Notes under the pieces: model-generated
Told to the model about the DNA's origin: nothing
The model's input: only the letters and a program-made list of their open reading frames with translations
Database searches by the model: none
DNA from: Roseivivax marinus
GTDB taxonomy: Bacteria; Pseudomonadota; Alphaproteobacteria; Rhodobacterales; Rhodobacteraceae
Direction: 5' to 3'
NCBI RefSeq assembly: GCF_900109705.1
Contig: NZ_FOAI01000001.1
Span: forward strand, 124,001-188,000
DNA length: 64,000 bases
Shown here: piece after piece, positions 17,197 to 28,077 of the stretch
How positions within the stretch are numbered: the first letter of the stretch is position 1
Layout: every line of letters begins with the position of its first letter
Translations under genes and position numbers: made by a program

Positions 17197-17883
17197 TCAC
17201 GCCTCTGTGGTCAGGCGGCGGTAGCTCATCGAGATGTGCGCCCGGCGAACGAGGGCGGCGGCGCTCGGGTCGTCGGCGTCGAGGGCGGCGGCGACCTGCC
17301 GGATCTCCTGTGCGAAGGACGTTGCCTCGCGGCGCAGGTCCAGCCGCGGGATGGTCTGCAGCCAGATCCGCGCCGTCTGGTAGTAGAGCCGCTCGGACGT
17401 CTCGGCGAGCGCGGCGTTTCCGCAGAGCCTCAGGCCGAAGTCGAAGAAGTCCATGTTCAGCGTCGCGAAATCCCGTGGGTCGGGGCGTGCCACCAGCGTC
17501 TCGCTCCGGTCCACGAAGTCACGCGCCTCGGCGCGGATCGCGGCCGTGACGGGGCGCGGCGACAGGGTGCCGGCGAGCTGCGCCAACTCCATCCGAAGGG
17601 CGTAGACGTCGGACAACTCGCGTGCGTCGACGTCGGTGACGATCGTGCCGACACCGTGACGCGCCTCGACCAGGCCTTCGTCCGAAAGTCGTGCCAGCAC
17701 CCGGCGCACGGGCGTGCGCGACACGCCGAACTCGGCGGCCAGCGCCTCTTCGCCCAGCTTGGTGCCGGGCGGGTAGTCGAGCAGGCAGATCCGTCCCCTG
17801 AGCTCGGCGTAGAGCTTGCGAAAGCGCTCTTCCGCGCTCAGGCGGCCAGGTTCCGCCGCAGGCCTTCGAGCATCGTCAGGCAT
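17197..17883 (-). CDS. GntR-family transcriptional regulator, FCD (FadR) subfamily
   Basis: A 228-residue regulator with an N-terminal winged helix (about 14-80: GTKLGEEALAAEFGVSRTPVRRVL) and an all-helical FCD ligand domain. FCD domains often bind metal plus a small carboxylate. It starts inside the argE 3' end (46-base overlap), so it is the third gene of the M24-argE-gntR operon. Two TTGTGTAC boxes in the divergent promoter region are likely operators (inference). The ligand is unknown. Confidence 0.88.
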   Translation of the reverse strand: MPDDARRPAAEPGRLSAEERFRKLYAELRGRICLLDYPPGTKLGEEALAAEFGVSRTPVRRVLARLSDEGLVEARHGVGTIVTDVDARELSDVYALRMELAQLAGTLSPRPVTAAIRAEARDFVDRSETLVARPDPRDFATLNMDFFDFGLRLCGNAALAETSERLYYQTARIWLQTIPRLDLRREATSFAQEIRQVAAALDADDPSAAALVRRAHISMSYRRLTTEA

Positions 17884-18992
17884 TCGGACAACTGTGTGCG
17901 CGAGATGTATTCGTCGGGCTTGTGGGCCTGCGCGATCGACCCCGGCCCGCAGACCACGACGGACATGCCGAGCTCCTGGAAGAGGCCCGCCTCGGTGCCG
18001 AACGGCACCACGTCGGCGGAGTTGCCGCCGGTAAGCTGCGCGACCAGCGCGCGGGCCATGTTGTCGTCCATCGGCTCGAGGCCCACGACCTCGCCGATGG
18101 TCTCGACGCTGATGTCGGCCCAGGGCGTGATGGCGCGCATGGCCGGCAGAAGCTCGCCCTCGACGTAGGCCTGCAGCTGCTCCTTCACGAACTCGGCGTC
18201 GCCATACTGAACGGGCCGCATTTCCCACTCGACCTCGGCGCGGCCGGGGATGACGTTGTGCGCGACGCCGCCCGCCAGCTTGCCCACGTTGACCGTGGTC
18301 CAGGGCGGATCGAAGCGGGAATCGCGCGGGGCCCGAAGCTTCAGTTCCTCGGCCAATTCCATCAGTCGGGTCACGTATTTGACGGCGTAGGCGACCGCGT
18401 TGACGCCGCGGTCGGGGTTTGAGCCGTGCCCCTCGAGCCCGTGGAACCGCGCGGTGTATTCGCAGCAGCCCTTGTGGCCTTCGATGATGCGCATCTCGGT
18501 CGGCTCGCCGACCACCGCGATGGCGGGCAGATGCTCGCGCTGCTTCAGAAGCGGCACCAGCGCCTGTGCGCCGAGGCAGCCCACCTCCTCGTCGTGGGTG
18601 AAACAGAAGTGCACGGGCCGACGCAGCGACGTGGCGCCGTATTCGTCCGCCATCGCCACCGCGGCGGCGATGAAGCCTTTCATGTCGCAGGTGCCCCGAC
18701 CCAGCAGAAGGTCGCCGCGCTCTGTCAGCTCCCATGGGTCGGTGGACCAGTCCTGATCCTTGACCGGCACCACGTCGGAGTGTCCGGACAGCAGAACGCC
18801 GCCCGCCACGTCCGGGCCGATCGTACCCCAGAGATTGGCTTTCTCGCCGGTCTCGTCCGCGAATATCTCGACGCGGGCGCCCGCGGATTCGAGGCGGTCG
18901 GCGAGATTGCCGATCAGCGCGGCGTTCGGATCGGACGAGACCGAGGGATGGGCGATCAGGTCGCGGAGGATATCTTCGGTGCGGTCGAGCAT
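17838..18992 (-). CDS. argE: M20-family deacetylase, acetylornithine deacetylase (ArgE)-like
   Basis: A 384-residue zinc amidohydrolase. Metal and catalytic motifs are intact: SGHSDVVP, GRGTCDMKG, HDEEVGCLGA with the catalytic Glu pair, VGEPTEMRIIEGHKG and the dimer-domain GHGSNPDRGVNA. It is closest to ArgE, which deacetylates N2-acetylornithine. Coupled to an M24 hydrolase and a catabolic-type regulator, it may instead deacetylate an N-acetyl-diamino acid released by the upstream enzyme. Its gene begins one base after the M24 stop. Confidence 0.85.
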   Translation of the reverse strand: MLDRTEDILRDLIAHPSVSSDPNAALIGNLADRLESAGARVEIFADETGEKANLWGTIGPDVAGGVLLSGHSDVVPVKDQDWSTDPWELTERGDLLLGRGTCDMKGFIAAAVAMADEYGATSLRRPVHFCFTHDEEVGCLGAQALVPLLKQREHLPAIAVVGEPTEMRIIEGHKGCCEYTARFHGLEGHGSNPDRGVNAVAYAVKYVTRLMELAEELKLRAPRDSRFDPPWTTVNVGKLAGGVAHNVIPGRAEVEWEMRPVQYGDAEFVKEQLQAYVEGELLPAMRAITPWADISVETIGEVVGLEPMDDNMARALVAQLTGGNSADVVPFGTEAGLFQELGMSVVVCGPGSIAQAHKPDEYISRTQLSECLTMLEGLRRNLAA

Positions 18993-18993
18993 C

Positions 18994-20190
18994 TCAGTCC
19001 TTCACGAACATCTTGCGGGGACGGTTGCAGAAGGTCTCGGCCGCGCCGTCCTCCTTGATGAGGATCGACTCGGTGATCTCGAGACCCCAATCCGACATCC
19101 AGAGGCCTGGCATGAAGTGGAAGGTCATGCCCGGCTCGAGCACGGTCTCGTCTTCGGAACGCAGGGAGATCGTCCGCTCGCCCCAGTCCGGCGGATAACT
19201 CAGACCGATCGGGTAGCCGCAGCGGGCGCCGCGTTCGATGCCGGCCGATTCCAGCGGCGCGGCCAGCGCGTTGGCGATATCGCAGGCGCGATTGCCGGCG
19301 CGCGCTGCCTCCAGACCGGCCTCGAGGCCCTCGACCAGCGCCGCTTCCGCACGCTTGAAGATGTCCGACGGCTCGCCGAGGAAGATCGTCCGGCAGAACG
19401 GCGCGTGGTAGCGACGGTAGCAGCCGGAGATCTCGAAGAACGTGGCCTCTCCTGCATTGAACGGGTCGCCGTCCCACGTCAGGTGCGGAGCGGCAGCGTC
19501 CGAGCCCGAGGGCAGCAGCGGCACGATGGCGGCGTAGTCGCCCCAGTGCCCGTCCACGCCGGTGAGCGCATCGCGGTAGACCTCGGCCACCACCTCGTTC
19601 TTCGGGACGCCGGGTTCCACCCGCTCGATCAGGCCGTCGACGATCTTCTCCGAGATCTTCGCGGCGCGGCGAATGAACACCAGCTCCTCTTCGGACTTCA
19701 CCGCACGCTGCCAGTTGGTCAGCGCGGTTGCGTCGATCAGCGTGGCGTTCGGCAATTCCTGCACGAGGGTCATGTAGGCCTTGGCCGAGAAGTAGTAGTT
19801 GTCGAGCTCGACCCCGATCCGGGCCTTTTCGAGTCCCATGCCGATCAGGCGCTGCGCGAGATCCTGCATCGGGTGGCGTTCGGTCGACTGCACGTAGTTG
19901 TCGGCGTAACCGATCACCCGGTCGTCGCCCATCCAGACGGTGCGGACGGCGCCGTTGGCGTCCTGGTTGCGGCCCCACCAGATCGGGTCGGCATCCGGAA
20001 GGACGATCACGCCTTGGTGCACGTAGAAGGACCAGCCGTCGTAGCCGGTCAGCCAAGCCATGTTCGAGGGGTCGGTGACGTAGAGGACGTCCACCCCGGC
20101 CCGATCCATCGCGGCGCGTGTCTTGGCCAGACGTCGGGTGTATTCGTCTTCACTGAAGGGCAGGTCCTTGGAGAAGCGGTGATACGCCAT
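18994..20190 (-). CDS. M24-family (pita-bread fold) hydrolase, creatinase/ectoine-hydrolase-like
   Basis: A 398-residue protein with an N-terminal creatinase domain (DVLYVTDPSNMAWLTGYDGW) and a C-terminal M24 domain. Three of the five dinuclear-metal ligands of M24 aminopeptidases are replaced: the first Asp is E253 (FFEISG), the second is P264 (HAPFCRT), and the GHG histidine region reads GYPIGLSYPPDWGE. E352 and E371 remain, as does H236. This matches metal-independent members such as creatinase and the ectoine hydrolase DoeA/EutD rather than true aminopeptidases. The ATG at 20190 is preferred over an upstream GTG because AAAGG is seven bases away. The substrate is not proven. Confidence 0.8.
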   Translation of the reverse strand: MAYHRFSKDLPFSEDEYTRRLAKTRAAMDRAGVDVLYVTDPSNMAWLTGYDGWSFYVHQGVIVLPDADPIWWGRNQDANGAVRTVWMGDDRVIGYADNYVQSTERHPMQDLAQRLIGMGLEKARIGVELDNYYFSAKAYMTLVQELPNATLIDATALTNWQRAVKSEEELVFIRRAAKISEKIVDGLIERVEPGVPKNEVVAEVYRDALTGVDGHWGDYAAIVPLLPSGSDAAAPHLTWDGDPFNAGEATFFEISGCYRRYHAPFCRTIFLGEPSDIFKRAEAALVEGLEAGLEAARAGNRACDIANALAAPLESAGIERGARCGYPIGLSYPPDWGERTISLRSEDETVLEPGMTFHFMPGLWMSDWGLEITESILIKEDGAAETFCNRPRKMFVKD

Positions 20191-20239
20191 GGGCACGCCT
20201 TTCTGCCTTGCTGGGTCTTACTCCCCCAGTCTTTCCAAA

Positions 20240-20249
20240 TTGTGTACAT
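20240..20249. promoter_or_regulatory. Candidate GntR-FCD operator 1
   Basis: TTGTGTACAT contains the core TGT-GT-ACA typical of GntR/FadR-type half-site pairs. It lies about 50 bases upstream of the M24 start. A near-identical box occurs 116 bases away. Confidence 0.5.
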
Positions 20250-20355
20250 CTCACCTTGCCTATTCGCGACATGGCATGACGTTTCCTGACCTCAGGCCGA
20301 TTTTCGATGAAAATTTCGGCGCCTGAAAGGGTCTCGGGGCGACCCTCCCGGCATG

Positions 20356-20365
20356 TTGTGTACAA
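20356..20365. promoter_or_regulatory. Candidate GntR-FCD operator 2
   Basis: TTGTGTACAA is near-palindromic and shares nine of ten bases with the box at 20240-20249. It sits toward the plus-strand transporter operon, so one regulator could control both arms. Confidence 0.5.
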
Positions 20366-20449
20366 CCTCGGCCAAAGTGCAGAACGCCCGGCGGGGTGAT
20401 TCCGTTTCATCCGGGGTGTCGCACGGGCCTTTGGAAGTCCTCTCCGGCG

Positions 20450-20488
20450 TCGGCCGCTTCGCTGCGAAGGACGGAAGCGCGCAGCCGA
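20450..20488 (+). promoter_or_regulatory. Stem-loop in the leader of the ABC-transporter operon
   Basis: TCGGC pairs with GCCGA and CGCTTC with GAAGCG, with a 4-base bulge and a 13-base loop. It would lie in the 5' leader of potA if transcription starts near the upstream operator. No known riboswitch consensus was recognised. Confidence 0.35.
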
Positions 20489-20647
20489 TCCGCCTGTCAG
20501 GTGCCCCGAACTTGAGCAAATCTCCTGTTTGAGCCGCCAGTGCCTGCAAAAGCGGCATCAGCAGTTGCATCGCGCAATCCGCCGCGCTTTAGTCATGGCA
20601 ATCAAACGCGGGACAACACCGCGAACGACAAACCAGGGAGCCAACGG

Positions 20648-21748
<1,101 letters not shown>

Positions 21749-21881
21749 GGTTCGTTTGTCCTGCCGTCCCGATGCGTGCCCGAGGCGCGCCCGAACGGGG
21801 ACGGTGGACCGAAGAAGGGTCCGAGCGTTCCGCCCGTGACACGGACCCACGACGCAAGACGGGTGCTACAGGGAGAAAGAG

Positions 21882-23000
21882 ATGACCATCTCCAAGACGC
21901 TTCTGGCCACAACCGCGCTGACGCTCGCGGCAGGCACTGCGTTCGCACAGGACCAGGAAATGGCCGACAGCATGACCATCGTCAGCTGGGGCGGCGCCTA
22001 CCAGAACAGCCAGCAGAAGGCCTATGCCGAGCCTTACATGGAGAACAATCCCGACGTGTCGATCACGTGGGACGAAAGCTCCAACGAGGCGGTGGCCAAG
22101 CTGCGTGCTATGAACGAAGCCGGCAACATCACCTGGGACCTCGTGGACGTGGTGGCTTCCGACGCCATTCGCCTCTGCGACGAAGGCCTGGCGATGGAAT
22201 ACGATCCCGACGACCTGCTGGCCGAAGCCCCCGACGGCACCTCGGCCGAGGATGATTTCGGCGACATGATCGTGTCGGACTGCTTCATCCCGCAGATCGC
22301 CTACTCGACCACCTTCGGCTACCGCACCGACATGGTCCCCGAGGGCGCCGACGCGCCGAGCGACATCTGCTCGGTCTTCGACCTCGAGACCTACCCGGGC
22401 AAGCGCGCGCTCGAGAAGCGCCCGATCAACAACATGGAGTGGGCGCTCCTGTGTGACGGCGTCGCCAAGGACGAGATCTACGACGTTCTGGCCACCGAAG
22501 AGGGCCAGGACCAGGCGCTCGCCAAGCTCGAGACCATCAAGGACGACGTCGTCTGGTGGTCGGCCGGCGCCGACACGCCGCAGCTTCTCGCCGACGGCGA
22601 GGTGTTCATGGGCTCGACCTACAACGGCCGCCTGTTCTCGCTGATCGAGGAGCAGGACCAGCCCGTCGCCATGATGTGGGACGCGCAGGTCTACGACCTT
22701 GACGGCTGGATCATCCCGACCGGTCTGCCGGACGACCGTCTGGCCCGCGTGCGCGACTTCGTGACCTTCGCCACCGACACCCAGCGCCTCGCAGACCAGG
22801 CCAAGTACATCTCGTACGGCCCGGCGCGCGAATCCTCGGCGCCGCTGGTGGGTCAGCACGCCGACCTGGGCATCGACATGGCGCCGCACATGCCGACCAA
22901 CCCGGAGAACGCCGGCAACACGTTCCTCTACAACTACGAGTTCTGGGCCGACTATCGCGACGACATCGACGCGAAGTTCCAGGCCTGGCTCGCGCAGTAA
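21882..23000 (+). CDS. potD: Extracellular solute-binding protein, PotD/PotF-like
   Basis: A 372-residue periplasmic protein with signal peptide MTISKTLLATTALTLAAGTAFA. The mature protein starts near residue 23 and contains MTIVSWGGAYQNSQQKAY, typical of the polyamine/opine binding-protein cluster (family 1 SBP). It is the substrate receptor for PotABC. The mature chain is acidic, in keeping with a cationic ligand, but specificity cannot be read from sequence. The ATG follows AGGGAGAAAGAG. Two GC hairpins follow the gene. Confidence 0.9.
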   Translation: MTISKTLLATTALTLAAGTAFAQDQEMADSMTIVSWGGAYQNSQQKAYAEPYMENNPDVSITWDESSNEAVAKLRAMNEAGNITWDLVDVVASDAIRLCDEGLAMEYDPDDLLAEAPDGTSAEDDFGDMIVSDCFIPQIAYSTTFGYRTDMVPEGADAPSDICSVFDLETYPGKRALEKRPINNMEWALLCDGVAKDEIYDVLATEEGQDQALAKLETIKDDVVWWSAGADTPQLLADGEVFMGSTYNGRLFSLIEEQDQPVAMMWDAQVYDLDGWIIPTGLPDDRLARVRDFVTFATDTQRLADQAKYISYGPARESSAPLVGQHADLGIDMAPHMPTNPENAGNTFLYNYEFWADYRDDIDAKFQAWLAQ

Positions 23001-23010
23001 GACGGGGCAG

Positions 23011-23071
23011 GGCGGGCCGGCGCGACCGGCCCGCCACGCACATCCGGAGGCGGGCGGTCCCGTCCGCCTCC
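23011..23071 (+). promoter_or_regulatory. Two consecutive hairpins between the binding-protein gene and the DUF1330 gene
   Basis: GGCGGGCCGG / CCGGCCCGCC (10 bp, loop CGCGA) is followed by GGAGGCGG / CCGCCTCC (8 bp). Without T-runs they probably stabilise the binding-protein mRNA or partly attenuate the downstream permeases, as is common after periplasmic-binding-protein genes. Confidence 0.5.
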
Positions 23072-23145
23072 GACATCGACCAGAACGACAGGCGCCGCCC
23101 GAACGGCGCAGGACACCGACAGGGAACGGCCGCAGGACACGGGCC

Positions 23146-23433
23146 ATGCCGAAGGGCTACATCATCGCACATATCAGCGTTCGCGATCCGGAGGCGTATC
23201 GCGAATACGTCGAGCGCGACACGCCGATCCTCGAAGGGCTGGGCGGACGCTTCGTCGTGCGCGGCGGCCGTGCCGAGGTGATGGAAGGCGAGACCCACGA
23301 CAGGCACGTGATCATCGAGTTCCCGACCTACGACGCGGCGCTCGCCGCCTATAACGACACCGCCTACCAGGAGGTCGCAGCCATCCGGCGCGCCAGCGCC
23401 GACAGCGTGATCCTGGTGGCCGAGGGGACGTGA
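23146..23433 (+). CDS. DUF1330 family protein
   Basis: A 95-residue ferredoxin-like (dimeric alpha-beta barrel) protein starting MPKGYIIAHISVRDPEAYREY. The family pattern GGRFVVRGGRAEVMEG and IIEFPTYDAALAAYNDTAYQ is clear. Biochemical function is unknown for the family. It is unusually placed inside a transporter operon: its stop overlaps the GTG immediately upstream of the permease start. It might act on the transported compound (inference). Confidence 0.88.
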   Translation: MPKGYIIAHISVRDPEAYREYVERDTPILEGLGGRFVVRGGRAEVMEGETHDRHVIIEFPTYDAALAAYNDTAYQEVAAIRRASADSVILVAEGT

Positions 23434-23438
23434 CAGAC

Positions 23439-25154
23439 ATGACCGACGCCACCCAGCATCCGATGGACGGGCCGACGCCCGACGACGCGCTTCGGCAGGC
23501 CAAGGCCGCCGACAGCGTCGACGACCAGGGCCGCCTTCTCGCGGCGGACGGCACGCCGCTCAAGCGCTCGCTCGCGCGCTCGCTCCGGGTCCAGAAGATC
23601 CGTGCACTTGCGCTGATCGCGCCGCTGCTGCTGTTCGTCCTCGTGACCTTCATCGCGCCGATTGCGGACATGCTGTTCCGCTCGGTCGAGAACGAGATCG
23701 TCCCCGAGACGCTGCCACGCACGGTTCAGCTCATCGGCGACTGGGACCACAACTCGGGCGAGGCACCCGACGCCGAGCTGTTCGAGGCCTTCTACTACGA
23801 CATGGCCATCGCCGCGCAGCTCAAGAACCACACCCGTCTCGGCACGCGCCTGAACTACGAGCAGACCGGCATCTCCTCGCTGTTCCGCCAGTCCGGCCGC
23901 GACATCGAGGACATCGGCGACGTCTACGTCGACCAGTTCGAGGACCTCGACGAGGCGTGGGAAGAGCCCGCGACCTGGCTCGCGCTCATGGGCGATGCGG
24001 ATTGGCGCGACAGCTACATGGAGTGGTTCGAGGGCGAGCAGGCGGGTGCGCCGCCGGCCTTCCAGCCCTCGGCGGCCGCCAGCGAGGCGCTGCCCCGCAC
24101 GGTCGAGATGTACACGCTCTTCTCCGAGTTCACTGCCGGTGCCCGTCGCGACAGCCTCGCCGAGGACGAGCCGTGGCCCGTGGCCTACACCGCGCTCTAC
24201 CAGGACCTGACGGCCCAGCCGAGCGCGACCGCCCCCTTTGAGGGCGAGATGGCGACGCTGGTCGGCGCCGCCGAGGACGCGGTCGCGGACTTCGAGACCG
24301 TGGACTTCCGCAGCTATTTCATCGACGAGATCGACGAGGACTGGGGCAACCCCGAGGTCTGGGCGACGATCCAGACATTCTCCGGGCCGTTCACCGCCGG
24401 CTACTTTCTGAACGCGGTGGACATGCAGGAGACGCCCGACGGCGTGGCCATGCAGCCCGACGACCAGCGCATTTACGGCCTTCTGTTCAAGCGCACTATG
24501 TTCATGTCGCTGACCATCACTTTCTGCTGCATCGCGCTGGGCTACCCGGTGGCCTACCTGCTGGCGACCCTGCCGATGCGGTCGGCGAACCTGCTGATGA
24601 TCCTCGTGCTGCTGCCGTTCTGGACTTCGCTGCTGGTGCGGACCTCGGCGTGGAAGGTCATGTTGCAGCAACAGGGGGTCATAAACGACGTGCTCGTCTG
24701 GCTCGGTCTCGTCGGCGACGGCTCACGCCTGGTGATGATCAACAACCAGTTCGGCACCATCGTGGCCATGACCCACATCCTGCTGCCGTTCATGATCCTG
24801 CCGATGTACTCGGTGATGTCGACGATCCCGCCCTCCTACGTGCGCGCGGCCAAGTCGCTGGGCGCGACCAACTGGACGGCGTTCTGGCGGGTCTACTTCC
24901 CGCAATCGGTGCCGGGCATCGGCGCGGGCTCGATCCTCGTCTTCATCCTCGCCATCGGCTACTACATCACCCCCGAGATCGTCGGCGGCACCACCGGCAC
25001 GTTCATCTCGAACCGGATCGCCTACCACATCTCCAGCTCGCTCAACTGGGGCCTCGCCGCGGCGCTGGGCACGATCCTTCTGGGCGTGGTTCTCATCCTC
25101 TACTGGGCCTACGACCGGATCGTCGGCATCGACAACGTGAAGCTGGGAGGCTGA
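23439..25154 (+). CDS. potB: Polyamine-type ABC transporter permease with a large periplasmic insertion (PotB-like)
   Basis: 571 residues, about twice a usual PotB (~285). TM1 spans about 56-80. Residues 84-350 form an acidic, probably periplasmic insertion. The MetI core follows with TM segments from about 352 and the coupling-helix motif SLGATNWTAFWRVYFPQSVPGI. The insertion contains a repeated motif, DEAWEEPATW (171-180) and DEDWGNPEVW (299-308), suggesting duplication of a smaller family-specific insert. The ATG at 23439 is preferred over the overlapping GTG at 23430, which is only two bases from GAGGGG. Confidence 0.85.
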   Translation: MTDATQHPMDGPTPDDALRQAKAADSVDDQGRLLAADGTPLKRSLARSLRVQKIRALALIAPLLLFVLVTFIAPIADMLFRSVENEIVPETLPRTVQLIGDWDHNSGEAPDAELFEAFYYDMAIAAQLKNHTRLGTRLNYEQTGISSLFRQSGRDIEDIGDVYVDQFEDLDEAWEEPATWLALMGDADWRDSYMEWFEGEQAGAPPAFQPSAAASEALPRTVEMYTLFSEFTAGARRDSLAEDEPWPVAYTALYQDLTAQPSATAPFEGEMATLVGAAEDAVADFETVDFRSYFIDEIDEDWGNPEVWATIQTFSGPFTAGYFLNAVDMQETPDGVAMQPDDQRIYGLLFKRTMFMSLTITFCCIALGYPVAYLLATLPMRSANLLMILVLLPFWTSLLVRTSAWKVMLQQQGVINDVLVWLGLVGDGSRLVMINNQFGTIVAMTHILLPFMILPMYSVMSTIPPSYVRAAKSLGATNWTAFWRVYFPQSVPGIGAGSILVFILAIGYYITPEIVGGTTGTFISNRIAYHISSSLNWGLAAALGTILLGVVLILYWAYDRIVGIDNVKLGG

Positions 25155-25158
25155 CGCG

Positions 25159-26349
25159 ATGAACGACGTCGTCATCACCGAGACCAAGACCATGCCGATG
25201 GGCTTCACCCTGCCCGTGGTCGCCGCGGCGGGGGCCTTCTTCGGCCTCTTCGTGGGCACCGCGCAGGGGTCGGGCCTCCTCGGCATCCTGATTGCCGGGG
25301 TCCTCTGCGCCGCCATCGCCTACGTCGCGATCTTCGTCGTCGGCACCGCGCAGGAGCGCGCGGTCCGCTGGGCCTGTGTCGCGCTCTTCGCGCTCGGCGG
25401 GTTCCTCTTCGCCGGCATTCCGGCGGCGATCATGGGCGCGCTCTTCGGCTGGTTCATCGGCTGGTTCGCCTACTGGATCGGGCGCTGCCGTTACCGCATG
25501 ACCCTGGCCCCCTACCTGACCTCGGGCCAGGTCCTCTGGCACTACAGCTTCCGCGTGCTCTGCGGGGCGATCTTCGTGTTCCTGATCACGCCGATCCTCG
25601 TGGTCATGCCGCTCTCGTTCAATGCCGAGAACTTCTTCACCTTCACCCCCGAGATGCTGTCCTTCGACCCCGAGGGCTACTCGCTGCGCCACTACCGCAA
25701 CTTCTTCCAGTCCTCGGAATGGCAGCACGCGCTGCGAAACTCGCTTCTGATCGCGCCGGTCGCGACCCTGCTTGCGGTGAGCTTCGGCACGCTGGCGGCC
25801 ATTGGTCTCAGCCAGCCCCACGTCCCGGGCCGGCAGGTCATCATGGCGATCCTGATCTCGCCGATGATCGTGCCGCTCATCATCTCGGCCGCGGGCATGT
25901 ACTTCTTCTACAGCCGGATCGGCCTTCAGGGCACCTATGTCGGCGTGGTGCTGGCGCACGCGGCGCTCGGGATTCCCTTCGTCATCATCACCGTGACGGC
26001 GACGCTCGTGGGTTTCGACCGCTCGCTCACGCGGGCAGCGGCGAACATGGGCGCGAACCCGGTGACCACGTTCTTCCGCGTGCAGATGCCGCTGATCCTG
26101 CCCGGCGTGATCTCGGGCGGCCTCTTTGCCTTCATCACGTCGTTCGACGAGGTGGTGGTGGTCCTGTTCGTCGGCTCGGCCAACCAGCAGACGCTGCCGT
26201 GGCAGATGTTCACCGGCCTGCGCGAGCAGATCTCGCCCACCATCCTCGCGGTGGCGACGATCCTCGTGGGCATCTCCATCTGCCTGCTGACCACCGTCGA
26301 GATCCTGCGGCGCCGGTCCGAGAAGATGCGCGGCATGAGCCCGGGCTGA
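25159..26349 (+). CDS. potC: Polyamine-type ABC transporter permease with extra N-terminal membrane domain (PotC-like)
   Basis: 396 residues versus about 265-290 for usual PotC. The first ~115 residues carry about four extra hydrophobic helices (for example LPVVAAAGAFFGLFVGTA and GLLGILIAGVLCAAIAYVAI). The MetI-type core begins near residue 128 (LWHYSFRVLCGAIFVFLITP) and has the EAA-like loop TRAAANMGANPVTTFFRVQMPLI. Four bases separate it from potB. It forms the translocation pore with PotB. Confidence 0.87.
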   Translation: MNDVVITETKTMPMGFTLPVVAAAGAFFGLFVGTAQGSGLLGILIAGVLCAAIAYVAIFVVGTAQERAVRWACVALFALGGFLFAGIPAAIMGALFGWFIGWFAYWIGRCRYRMTLAPYLTSGQVLWHYSFRVLCGAIFVFLITPILVVMPLSFNAENFFTFTPEMLSFDPEGYSLRHYRNFFQSSEWQHALRNSLLIAPVATLLAVSFGTLAAIGLSQPHVPGRQVIMAILISPMIVPLIISAAGMYFFYSRIGLQGTYVGVVLAHAALGIPFVIITVTATLVGFDRSLTRAAANMGANPVTTFFRVQMPLILPGVISGGLFAFITSFDEVVVVLFVGSANQQTLPWQMFTGLREQISPTILAVATILVGISICLLTTVEILRRRSEKMRGMSPG

Positions 26350-26350
26350 C

Positions 26351-27331
26351 ATGCTCAAACAGGCACTCGCCCGAATAGCGCACCCGGTCGAACAGGCGTT
26401 CGACCGGGTGTTTCTTCGCTCCACGCCCGACGAGGTGGTGATCGATCCCTACCTCGGCTACGCGACGCCCGAGCACATCCTCCTGCGCGGCCGCGTCTTG
26501 ACGCATCTCAGACGAACCAACCCCGCGCCCGAGGCCAGCTGGTGGGTGAACCTGCGCCAGATGGCGGGCCTGTTCCTGACCCGCGAGGTTGCGGGAAAGA
26601 CGGTGTGCTGGGGCGAGGTGACCGCGCAGACCGACGAGGAGGGCTATTTCACCCTCCACGTGCCGCGCGGCGAAGCCGCGCCCGGCTGGTTTTCGGCCGA
26701 GGTCGCCATCGATGGCGGCGAGGGCGCGACGCTCGAGGCGCTGGTTCCGCCTGCCGACGCGCCATTCGGCGTGATCTCCGACATAGACGACACGGTGCTC
26801 GAGACCGGGGCCTACTCGCTCCTGCGGAACCTCTGGACGTCGCTCACCGGCAACGCGATGACTCGGCACGTCTACGAGGACGCCGTGACGCTGATGCACG
26901 GCTTCGTGCGGCTCGGCGCGCCGGTCTACTTCGTGTCGTCGAGCCCGTGGAACCTGCACCATTTCCTGCGCCGCATCTTCGAGCGGCATGACCTGCCCAA
27001 GGGCCCGATGTTCCTGCGCGACCTCGGCATCTCGCGGACGCAGTTCATCTCGGGCACCCACGGCGACCACAAGGGGGCGGCCATCGACTCGCTGCTCGCC
27101 GCCAATCCCGATCTGCCTTTCGTGCTGGTGGGCGACACCGGCCAGCACGACCCGCAAGTCTACCTCGCCGCCGCCGAGCGTCACCCGGGCCGGATCGTGC
27201 GCGTCATCCTGCGCGAGCCGGGCAAGGGCGCCGACCGCCGAGACCTCGCCCGGATCGAGGCGATGGAAGAGCGCGGCATCGTCGTCGAGCACGGCACGGA
27301 CTACACCGCCATCATCCCGGAGCTGCCATGA
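26351..27331 (+). CDS. App1-like phosphatase (DUF2183, HAD-type DxDDT)
   Basis: A 326-residue protein with the phosphatidate-phosphatase APP1 catalytic domain. The nucleophile motif SDIDDTVLETG places D144, D146 and D147 at the HAD-like site; YFVSSSPWNLHHFLRR and GDTGQHDPQVY are the later motifs. Yeast App1 dephosphorylates phosphatidate; bacterial substrates are unclear. No signal peptide is seen. It starts one base after the potC stop and overlaps the next gene by four bases, so it belongs to the transporter operon. Confidence 0.85.
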   Translation: MLKQALARIAHPVEQAFDRVFLRSTPDEVVIDPYLGYATPEHILLRGRVLTHLRRTNPAPEASWWVNLRQMAGLFLTREVAGKTVCWGEVTAQTDEEGYFTLHVPRGEAAPGWFSAEVAIDGGEGATLEALVPPADAPFGVISDIDDTVLETGAYSLLRNLWTSLTGNAMTRHVYEDAVTLMHGFVRLGAPVYFVSSSPWNLHHFLRRIFERHDLPKGPMFLRDLGISRTQFISGTHGDHKGAAIDSLLAANPDLPFVLVGDTGQHDPQVYLAAAERHPGRIVRVILREPGKGADRRDLARIEAMEERGIVVEHGTDYTAIIPELP

Positions 27332-28077
27332 CCATCCATGCCCCCAACCTGACCGATTGGGACACGCGCGCCGACCTTGCCGCGGCCCTGCGCTGGACCG
27401 CCCGGCTCGACATGCACGAGGGCGTCGCCAACCACTTCTCGATCGCGGTGAACGAAGCCGGCACGCGCCTCCTGATCAATCCGAACCAGCGCCACTTCTC
27501 CCGCGTCCGCGCCTCGGACCTCGTGGAGATCGACGCGGACGATCCCGCGACGCTCGATCGTCCCGACGCGCCTGATCCGACCGCATGGGGCCTGCATGGC
27601 GCGCTCCACCGCCGGGTCCCGCACGCGCGCTGCGCCATGCATGTCCATTCGACCTACGCCACCGTGCTCGCGACTTTGGCCGATCCCACCCTTCCGCCGA
27701 TCGACCAGAACAGCGCGGCGTTCTTCGACCGCGTTGTGATCGACGACCAGTACGGCGGCCTCGCCTTCGAGGAGGAGGGCGCGCGCTGCGCCGCCCTCTT
27801 CACCGACCCGAAACGGAAGGTGATGATCATGGGCAATCACGGCGTGCTGGTGATCGGAGCGAGCGTGGCCGAGACCTTCGACCGGCTCTACCATTTCGAA
27901 CGCGCCGCCCGCACCTACGTCCTCGCGCTTCAGACCGGACGCGCGTTGCGCGTGCTGTCCGACGAGATCGCGGAGAAGACCGCCCGTGAACTCGAGGCCT
28001 ATCCCGAACAGGGCGACGGACATCTCTCCGAACTCCGCGCCATTCTGGACGCGGAAGCCTCGGACTACGCGAGCTGA
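27328..28077 (+). CDS. Class II aldolase/adducin family protein
   Basis: A 249-residue protein of the zinc-dependent class II aldolase fold. Metal histidines are visible in MHVHSTY (H105, H107) and GNHGVLV (H171). Family members include fuculose-phosphate aldolase and ribulose-phosphate epimerase-like enzymes, but many have unassigned reactions. The start overlaps the App1 stop (ATGA), ending the seven-gene plus-strand operon. A REP-like element and a convergent gene follow. Confidence 0.87.
   Translation: MTIHAPNLTDWDTRADLAAALRWTARLDMHEGVANHFSIAVNEAGTRLLINPNQRHFSRVRASDLVEIDADDPATLDRPDAPDPTAWGLHGALHRRVPHARCAMHVHSTYATVLATLADPTLPPIDQNSAAFFDRVVIDDQYGGLAFEEEGARCAALFTDPKRKVMIMGNHGVLVIGASVAETFDRLYHFERAARTYVLALQTGRALRVLSDEIAEKTARELEAYPEQGDGHLSELRAILDAEASDYAS

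Follow-up and report, generated by a model that had tools for sequence, protein, structure and literature searches.

Gene content and layout of the locus

The stretch analysed here, hereafter the window, is a 64 kb piece of the Roseivivax marinus genome (contig C24 of genome G000, positions 124001–188000), within which ten genes in two divergent arms are best read as a module for ectoine and hydroxyectoine, ectoine being a salt-protectant that is widespread as both osmolyte and nutrient. Reading outwards from the junction, one arm encodes an M24 enzyme, an ArgE-type M20 enzyme and a GntR/FCD regulator, the other an ATP-binding cassette (ABC) importer of the Pot type, with its solute-binding protein (SBP) and two permeases, followed by an App1-domain protein and a class II aldolase (Table 1). 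All ten lie where an earlier, sequence-only reading of this DNA had placed them and belong, by profile matches, to the families it had named. The tight packing it described stands overall, save that the 145-base gap after the SBP gene is joined by a further one of 133 bases in front of that gene, and by some 500 bases at the divergent junction. The open reading frame of the PotA-like ATPase begins at 20540; the codon-usage gene caller prefers a start at 20693.

The order GntR-ArgE-DoeA / ATPase-SBP-DUF1330-permease-permease-APP1 is kept in all eight same-genus genomes examined; the block of M24, argE and gntR genes beside transporter genes is thus conserved in relatives, as had been anticipated, with the qualification that the conserved order takes in nine genes, from GntR through APP1, and leaves the aldolase outside. 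Among named close relatives, a sample chosen by M24 similarity, the ATPase and SBP are retained in the M24 locus in 68 of the 69 evaluable cases (orientation being unscored in this set); the eight named relatives at 88–91% M24 identity comprise six Roseivivax and two Puniceibacterium.

Table 1. Genes and operator-like sites of the divergent locus (window coordinates)
Feature	Position	Strand	Evidence and remarks
GntR/FCD transcription regulator	about 17197–17883	-	PF00392 69.3 bits, PF07729 48.4 bits; start uncertain
ArgE-type M20 deacetylase (proposed)	17838–18992	-	PRK07522 446.8 bits (cut-off 412), TIGR01892 365.7 (297.7)
M24 ectoine hydrolase DoeA/EutD (predicted)	18994–20196	-	TIGR02993 612.7 bits (cut-off 613); PDB 6twj E 4e-157
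Operator-like site TTGTGTACAT	20240–20249	.	Motif comparison across loci
Operator-like site TTGTGTACAA	20356–20365	.	Motif comparison across loci
PotA-like ABC ATPase	20693–21748	+	TIGR01187 373.4 bits (cut-off 355.6); start uncertain
Solute-binding protein SBP_bac_8, GABA/opine-binder-like fold	21882–23000	+	
DUF1330 protein, accessory	23146–23433	+	PF07045 107 bits
PotB-like permease, 574 aa, large N-terminal/insert region	23430–25154	+	PF00528 at residues 372–564
PotC-like permease, 396 aa, N-terminal extension	25159–26349	+	PF00528 at residues 207–386
App1-domain protein (APP1_cat)	26351–27331	+	PF09949 140 bits
Class II aldolase family protein	27328–28077	+	PRK07490 395.6 bits

The M24 enzyme

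Judged by its sequence, the M24 gene is that of the ectoine hydrolase DoeA/EutD, its hydrolytic activity being predicted. The protein shares 59.2% identity with the Halomonas DoeA of known structure and 62–63% with the annotated DoeA of Caballeronia and Chelatococcus, found there within ehu-eut-doe clusters, and it falls inside the DoeA group of a 67-row tree (rooted for drawing only), bearing out the earlier suggestion of a DoeA-like enzyme. Aligned with prolidase, the residues D, D, H, E and E, which we take to be the metal-ligand positions of M24 enzymes, are replaced by E, P, Y, M and T in both the window protein and Halomonas DoeA. The genome has no second DoeA-like gene, its next M24 proteins being 27–28% identical. 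Enzymes of the DoeA family open the ectoine ring to give N-acetyl-2,4-diaminobutyrate.

Within the tree, one branch (support 98/94) parts 42 rows with ArgE in the locus from 8 with EutE in the locus, the latter including Halomonas, Caballeronia and Chelatococcus; 17 of the 67 rows fall in neither group. With L091 and L092 drawn outermost, the ArgE group is nested among EutE-linked DoeA.

Relatives of DoeA also occur on plasmids. One from Alisedimentitalea scapharcae (L252) carries a 66% relative, annotated just as an M24 metallopeptidase and lacking an adjoining ArgE gene, next to trimethylamine-methyltransferase-family and ring-hydroxylating dioxygenase genes; Klebsiella plasmids carry genes annotated doeA (61%), Klebsiella being the first name on 28 of 343 matching plasmid records.

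An ArgE-type enzyme as the probable substitute for DoeB/EutE

Our wider comparison takes one genome for each genus of the family, 149 in all, 95 with DoeA and 54 without. The ArgE clade of the window is present in 61 of the former and one of the latter (Fisher 7.6e-16), the lone DoeA-less case, G147, being a 73% complete genome that holds DoeD. Comparison also supports an exclusion between ArgE and EutE, since 59 of the DoeA genomes have ArgE only, 19 EutE only, 2 both and 15 neither (5.7e-9; both values ignore shared ancestry); EutE was counted in the 21 genomes that exceed the curated cut-off, 35 having been listed at E ≤ 1e-60. ArgE directly adjoins DoeA in 46 of the 50 genomes that carry it together with a DoeA of at least 62% identity, a cut for ArgE-type DoeA that takes in 56 genomes and misplaces at least G026 (64%, carrying EutE and belonging to the EutE group).

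This adjacency may go back to a single event, because the DoeA tree needs just one ArgE/EutE change; better evidence, in our view, is the company that ArgE keeps when it has moved away from DoeA. So relocated, it adjoins EutB-EutC-Lrp-DoeD in G138 (L151), Lrp-DoeD in G117 (L241) and EutB-EutC in G004 (L242). In G002 it lies by the importer (L093), and Lrp, SSADH and DoeD accompany a DoeA that belongs to the EutE group (L158), no EutE being found in that genome at E ≤ 1e-60. No ectoine gene was seen adjoining ArgE in five other genomes where it is away from DoeA (G009, G049, G065, G093 and G132).

In the window's own genome, EutE (TIGR02994) was not found at E ≤ 1e-60, and the best 25 of the 50 NCBIfam families listed for the ArgE-type protein include M20 models and neither TIGR02994 nor the DoeB2 model NF038260. 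The protein resembles the M20 acetylornithine deacetylase ArgE in exceeding both of that family's cut-offs (PRK07522 and TIGR01892), and differs in that the genome has ArgJ for making arginine, leaving the ArgE-type gene dispensable for arginine synthesis, and in that 61 of the 62 genomes with its clade have DoeA. N-alpha-acetyl-diaminobutyrate is one carbon shorter than N-acetylornithine. Most likely, the ArgE-type M20 enzyme substitutes for the deacetylase EutE/DoeB; an M24 enzyme and a deacetylase acting in series had been proposed before, and this part of the proposal is supported.

The remainder of the pathway and the likely substrate

EutB, EutC, Lrp, SSADH and DoeD lie together at 109–115 kb of the contig that carries DoeA, some 28 kb away from it; EutB scores 437.8 bits (cut-off 413.35) and DoeD matches at 80%. 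On contig C18 (L239, G000:C18:75000-94500) are uehA, uehB, uehC and usp with an EutA-like gene, and since these lie apart from the other ectoine genes the pathway is split over three places. With the ArgE-type enzyme in the putative role of deacetylase, the gene set for ectoine utilisation (DoeA, deacetylase, DoeD, DoeC, EutB/EutC) is complete in the genome. Two ectoine-synthase-family genes are also present (C24:432661-433035, 196 bits; C24:493838-494206, 150 bits), so the organism may synthesise ectoine as well.

To see these genes in their surroundings we mapped 60 loci for the 95 DoeA genomes, chosen across the identity range (G013 and G038 appearing twice), using a codon-usage gene caller and clustering; such maps may miss or mis-start genes, and each cluster name rests on one tested representative. 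Of the 60, seven (L045, L049, L052, L063, L067, L068 and L076) bring EutB and EutC clusters together with ArgE and DoeA, and 14 have the DoeD cluster at the ArgE-DoeA locus; counts of DoeD by genome are of 70 out of 74, with G030, G040, G118 and G140 (52–63%) dropped. Such shared loci offer the clearest pointer to the substrate of the predicted enzymes. In L063 the GntR-ArgE-DoeA block faces EhuB, Ehu permeases and their ATPase, EutB, EutC, Lrp, SSADH and DoeD; profiles were run for EhuB, one of the two Ehu permeases, EutB, EutC, Lrp, SSADH and DoeD, of which EhuB, EhuD and EutB exceed their NCBIfam cut-offs, EutC exceeds PRK08291 and not TIGR02992, and SSADH has no DoeC-specific model among the matches listed. 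By clustering, L067 and L068 have a similar layout, without the SSADH cluster.

The sequence-only reading had instead proposed that the locus takes up and processes a different compound related to ectoine, a cyclic amidine or N-acyl solute. Such a substrate would sit well with the presence of UehABC for ectoine itself, with the DoeA score just under the NCBI cut-off, with the unrelated neighbourhood of the 66% relative on the Alisedimentitalea plasmid, and with the further M24 subfamilies found next to this importer, in part in genomes that lack DoeA (L101, L126). It is less easily squared with a sole DoeA-like gene in a genome that has EutB, EutC, SSADH and DoeD, or with the same block facing Ehu transporter genes in L063, L067 and L068, and we consider it unlikely. 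For the enzymes the solute is most likely ectoine or hydroxyectoine, because relatives have EutB, EutC and DoeD in loci that also hold the block, and the rest of the pathway lies in the window's own genome.

Seven loci (L045, L049, L055, L065, L076, L106 and L112) contain a second M24 protein with no NCBIfam match at E ≤ 1e-25, which adjoins an EutA-like protein (156 bits, cut-off 318); a PLP enzyme resembling diaminopropionate ammonia-lyase is present in five of the seven, and the set lies directly before a Pot-type importer in six. It may constitute a further pathway for an ectoine analogue.

The GntR regulator and the operator-like sites

Allowing up to one mismatch, TTGTGTACAA occurs twice in the window, both times between DoeA and the ATPase. 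Taken by itself this is weak (two matches for 0.28 expected, with 5 of 100 shuffles reaching two); what carries weight is the comparison between loci. The motif is kept in the same region in eight congeners, L141 having just a weaker form, ATGTGTACAT, and it is found upstream of DoeA in 9 of the 11 loci that have GntR and in 2 of the 47 that do not (p 2.6e-7, a value that ignores shared ancestry), L046 and L051 being the two of the 60 mapped loci that were not evaluable. Named relatives give 17 of 19 with GntR and 1 of 28 without, although the two sets (58 family loci and 47 named loci) share genomes and are not independent.

Because in relatives the operators of the intergenic region occur largely where the GntR gene does, the two arms are probably co-regulated, and GntR, where present, probably controls both; independent regulation of the arms is not indicated, and the locus probably forms the single functional unit that had been supposed. 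Since GntR is found in just 24 of 74 evaluable named loci, and the motif was not found in the genome's two other ectoine loci (L139 and L239), control would be local and would differ among lineages, with the GntR/FCD protein as the probable local regulator of both arms.

The Pot-type importer

As had been recognised from the sequence, the importer lies outside the Ueh and Ehu types, being composed of a Pot-type ATPase, an SBP_bac_8 binding protein and BPD permeases. Its linkage to DoeA is supported by comparison: it lies at most 15 kb from DoeA in 26 of the 46 family genomes with both, and it directly follows DoeD in L042, L065 and L094, directly follows an EutA-like gene in L045, L049, L055, L076, L106 and L112, and in L112 directly precedes a DoeA from the other group. 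Importer loci away from DoeA were sampled as 40 stretches. DUF1330 is present in 29 of the 63 loci with the SBP and first permease.

The permeases are extended, as described earlier, the first having a long region ahead of its core. We do not retain this enlargement as special to the locus, for large permeases are common in the transporter family and vary in length, orthologues of the first permease spanning 393–594 aa (63 genes) and those of the second 264–419 aa (61 genes).

A polyamine transporter, PotABCD proper, is suggested by an ATPase over the potA subfamily cut-off, by permeases closest to PotB and PotC, and by the PotFGHI genes that adjoin the importer in some relatives. The SBP is not of the PotD/PotF type that marks the PotABCD polyamine importer: it has no NCBIfam family match at E ≤ 0.001 and is 14–18% identical to solved polyamine binders. 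In Ruegeria pomeroyi it is PotFGHI that was shown to carry cadaverine, putrescine and spermidine (PMC10130141). We think a polyamine role very improbable.

A stronger competitor holds that the enzymes do serve ectoine catabolism, that the importer takes up GABA or some other omega-amino acid and is just kept alongside, and that ectoine enters through UehABC or another system. The SBP's best structural matches are GABA and opine binders (SAR11 PotD, Atu4243, MotA and AgtB), with which it shares its fold and 26–38% identity; among the 50 structure matches listed there is no ectoine binder, which proves nothing alone. The uehABC-usp genes and EutA-like gene on C18 mean that the Pot importer is not the genome's sole uptake candidate. 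An importer with an SBP of at least 60% identity also occurs in 11 of the 54 DoeA-less genomes, and in five loci without DoeA it stands by PotFGHI and another aminotransferase. We sought a separate ectoine clade of the SBP and found none: the contexts are intermixed on the SBP tree, with four context changes, a number as low as which is reached in 90 of 500 shuffles. What distinguishes the window SBP from the GABA and opine binders is its gene neighbourhood, that of ectoine catabolism. Its near-constant retention in the DoeA locus of named relatives, the operators in the shared intergenic region, and operon neighbours elsewhere that are DoeD, EutA-like or the second DoeA type all speak against a bystander, and among the 26 genomes in which importer and DoeA are adjacent, a close UehA occurs in just two (G000 and G047) and an EhuB over the cut-off in none. 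We hold this alternative to be a real possibility, if one from which we lean away.

A third M24 subfamily (about 405 aa) lies near the Pot-type importer in L065, L095, L101, L106, L112, L126 and L127, the genomes of L101 and L126 being ones that lack DoeA.

App1 and the aldolase

All eight congeners have the App1 gene after the second permease, and it is missing from all 59 other DoeA loci examined, of which some are truncated at contig ends; beyond the genus, a single copy (51%) was seen in G002, at another place in that genome. None of the eight congeners has the aldolase at this position; G005 carries a 71% copy some 13 kb away from DoeA (L157), and the gene is in 1 of 69 named loci. On this distribution App1 is a passenger that the operon carries at the level of the genus, and the aldolase is probably a neighbour, not part of the system. 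We reject both as members of the pathway; the sequence-only reading could name no pathway for them, and neither needs one.

A probable ectoine module with exchanged parts

We regard it as likely that the locus serves a Roseivivax-like roseobacter as a module for taking up and breaking down ectoine and 5-hydroxyectoine. DoeA would open the ectoine ring to N-acetyl-2,4-diaminobutyrate, from which the ArgE-type enzyme, replacing the AstE-type DoeB/EutE, would remove the acetyl group. DoeD and the SSADH-type DoeC of the second cluster, genes found by similarity, convert diaminobutyrate to aspartate in the known pathway, and would do so here. The divergent Pot-type importer may take in ectoines or close zwitterionic analogues, the weakest step and one on which we are about evenly balanced; the GntR/FCD protein would bind the operators between the arms and control both. 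App1 and the aldolase would stand outside this mechanism.

Besides the SBP's affinities, the second uptake system and the importer's other contexts, several observations weigh against this assignment. The M24 score falls 0.3 bits under the TIGR02993 cut-off; 27 of the 95 DoeA genomes lack a DoeD of at least 70% identity, and fifteen have neither deacetylase; of 76 evaluable named loci, 27 (22 from Roseovarius) have no ArgE behind DoeA. The lone ArgE/EutE change on the DoeA tree and the patchy occurrence of GntR and its motif belong here too.

Compared with described ectoine-utilisation systems, the window's genome shares EutD/DoeA, EutB, EutC, Lrp/AsnC, SSADH and DoeD, and differs in having an ArgE-type M20 enzyme where those have EutE, a Pot-type importer beside DoeA, a GntR/FCD gene beside DoeA, the described systems using the MocR-type EnuR, and a pathway in three places. 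It would thus be a known catabolic core with swapped parts, the second enzyme and the candidate importer being the unusual ones; our literature search, limited to openly accessible papers, found no description of an ArgE-type DoeB or a Pot-type ectoine importer. One survey, as described in PMC8739950, retained just genomes with adjacent eutD and eutE, 363 in number, and another pursued just those with EutD, EutE and EutB (PMC13188858); clusters of the window's type would drop out of each.

More tentatively, and with slightly less than even confidence, we suggest a roseobacter-wide form of ectoine utilisation, in which DoeA is paired with an ArgE-type deacetylase for DoeB, a new Pot/GABA-type ABC importer for ectoine and, in some lineages, a GntR/FCD switch. 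As 59 of the 95 DoeA genomes are of the ArgE type without EutE and 21 have EutE, the textbook EutE form would be the minority in the family. If true, the ArgE/Pot form would explain part of the ectoine degraders reported without doeB or a neighbouring transporter.

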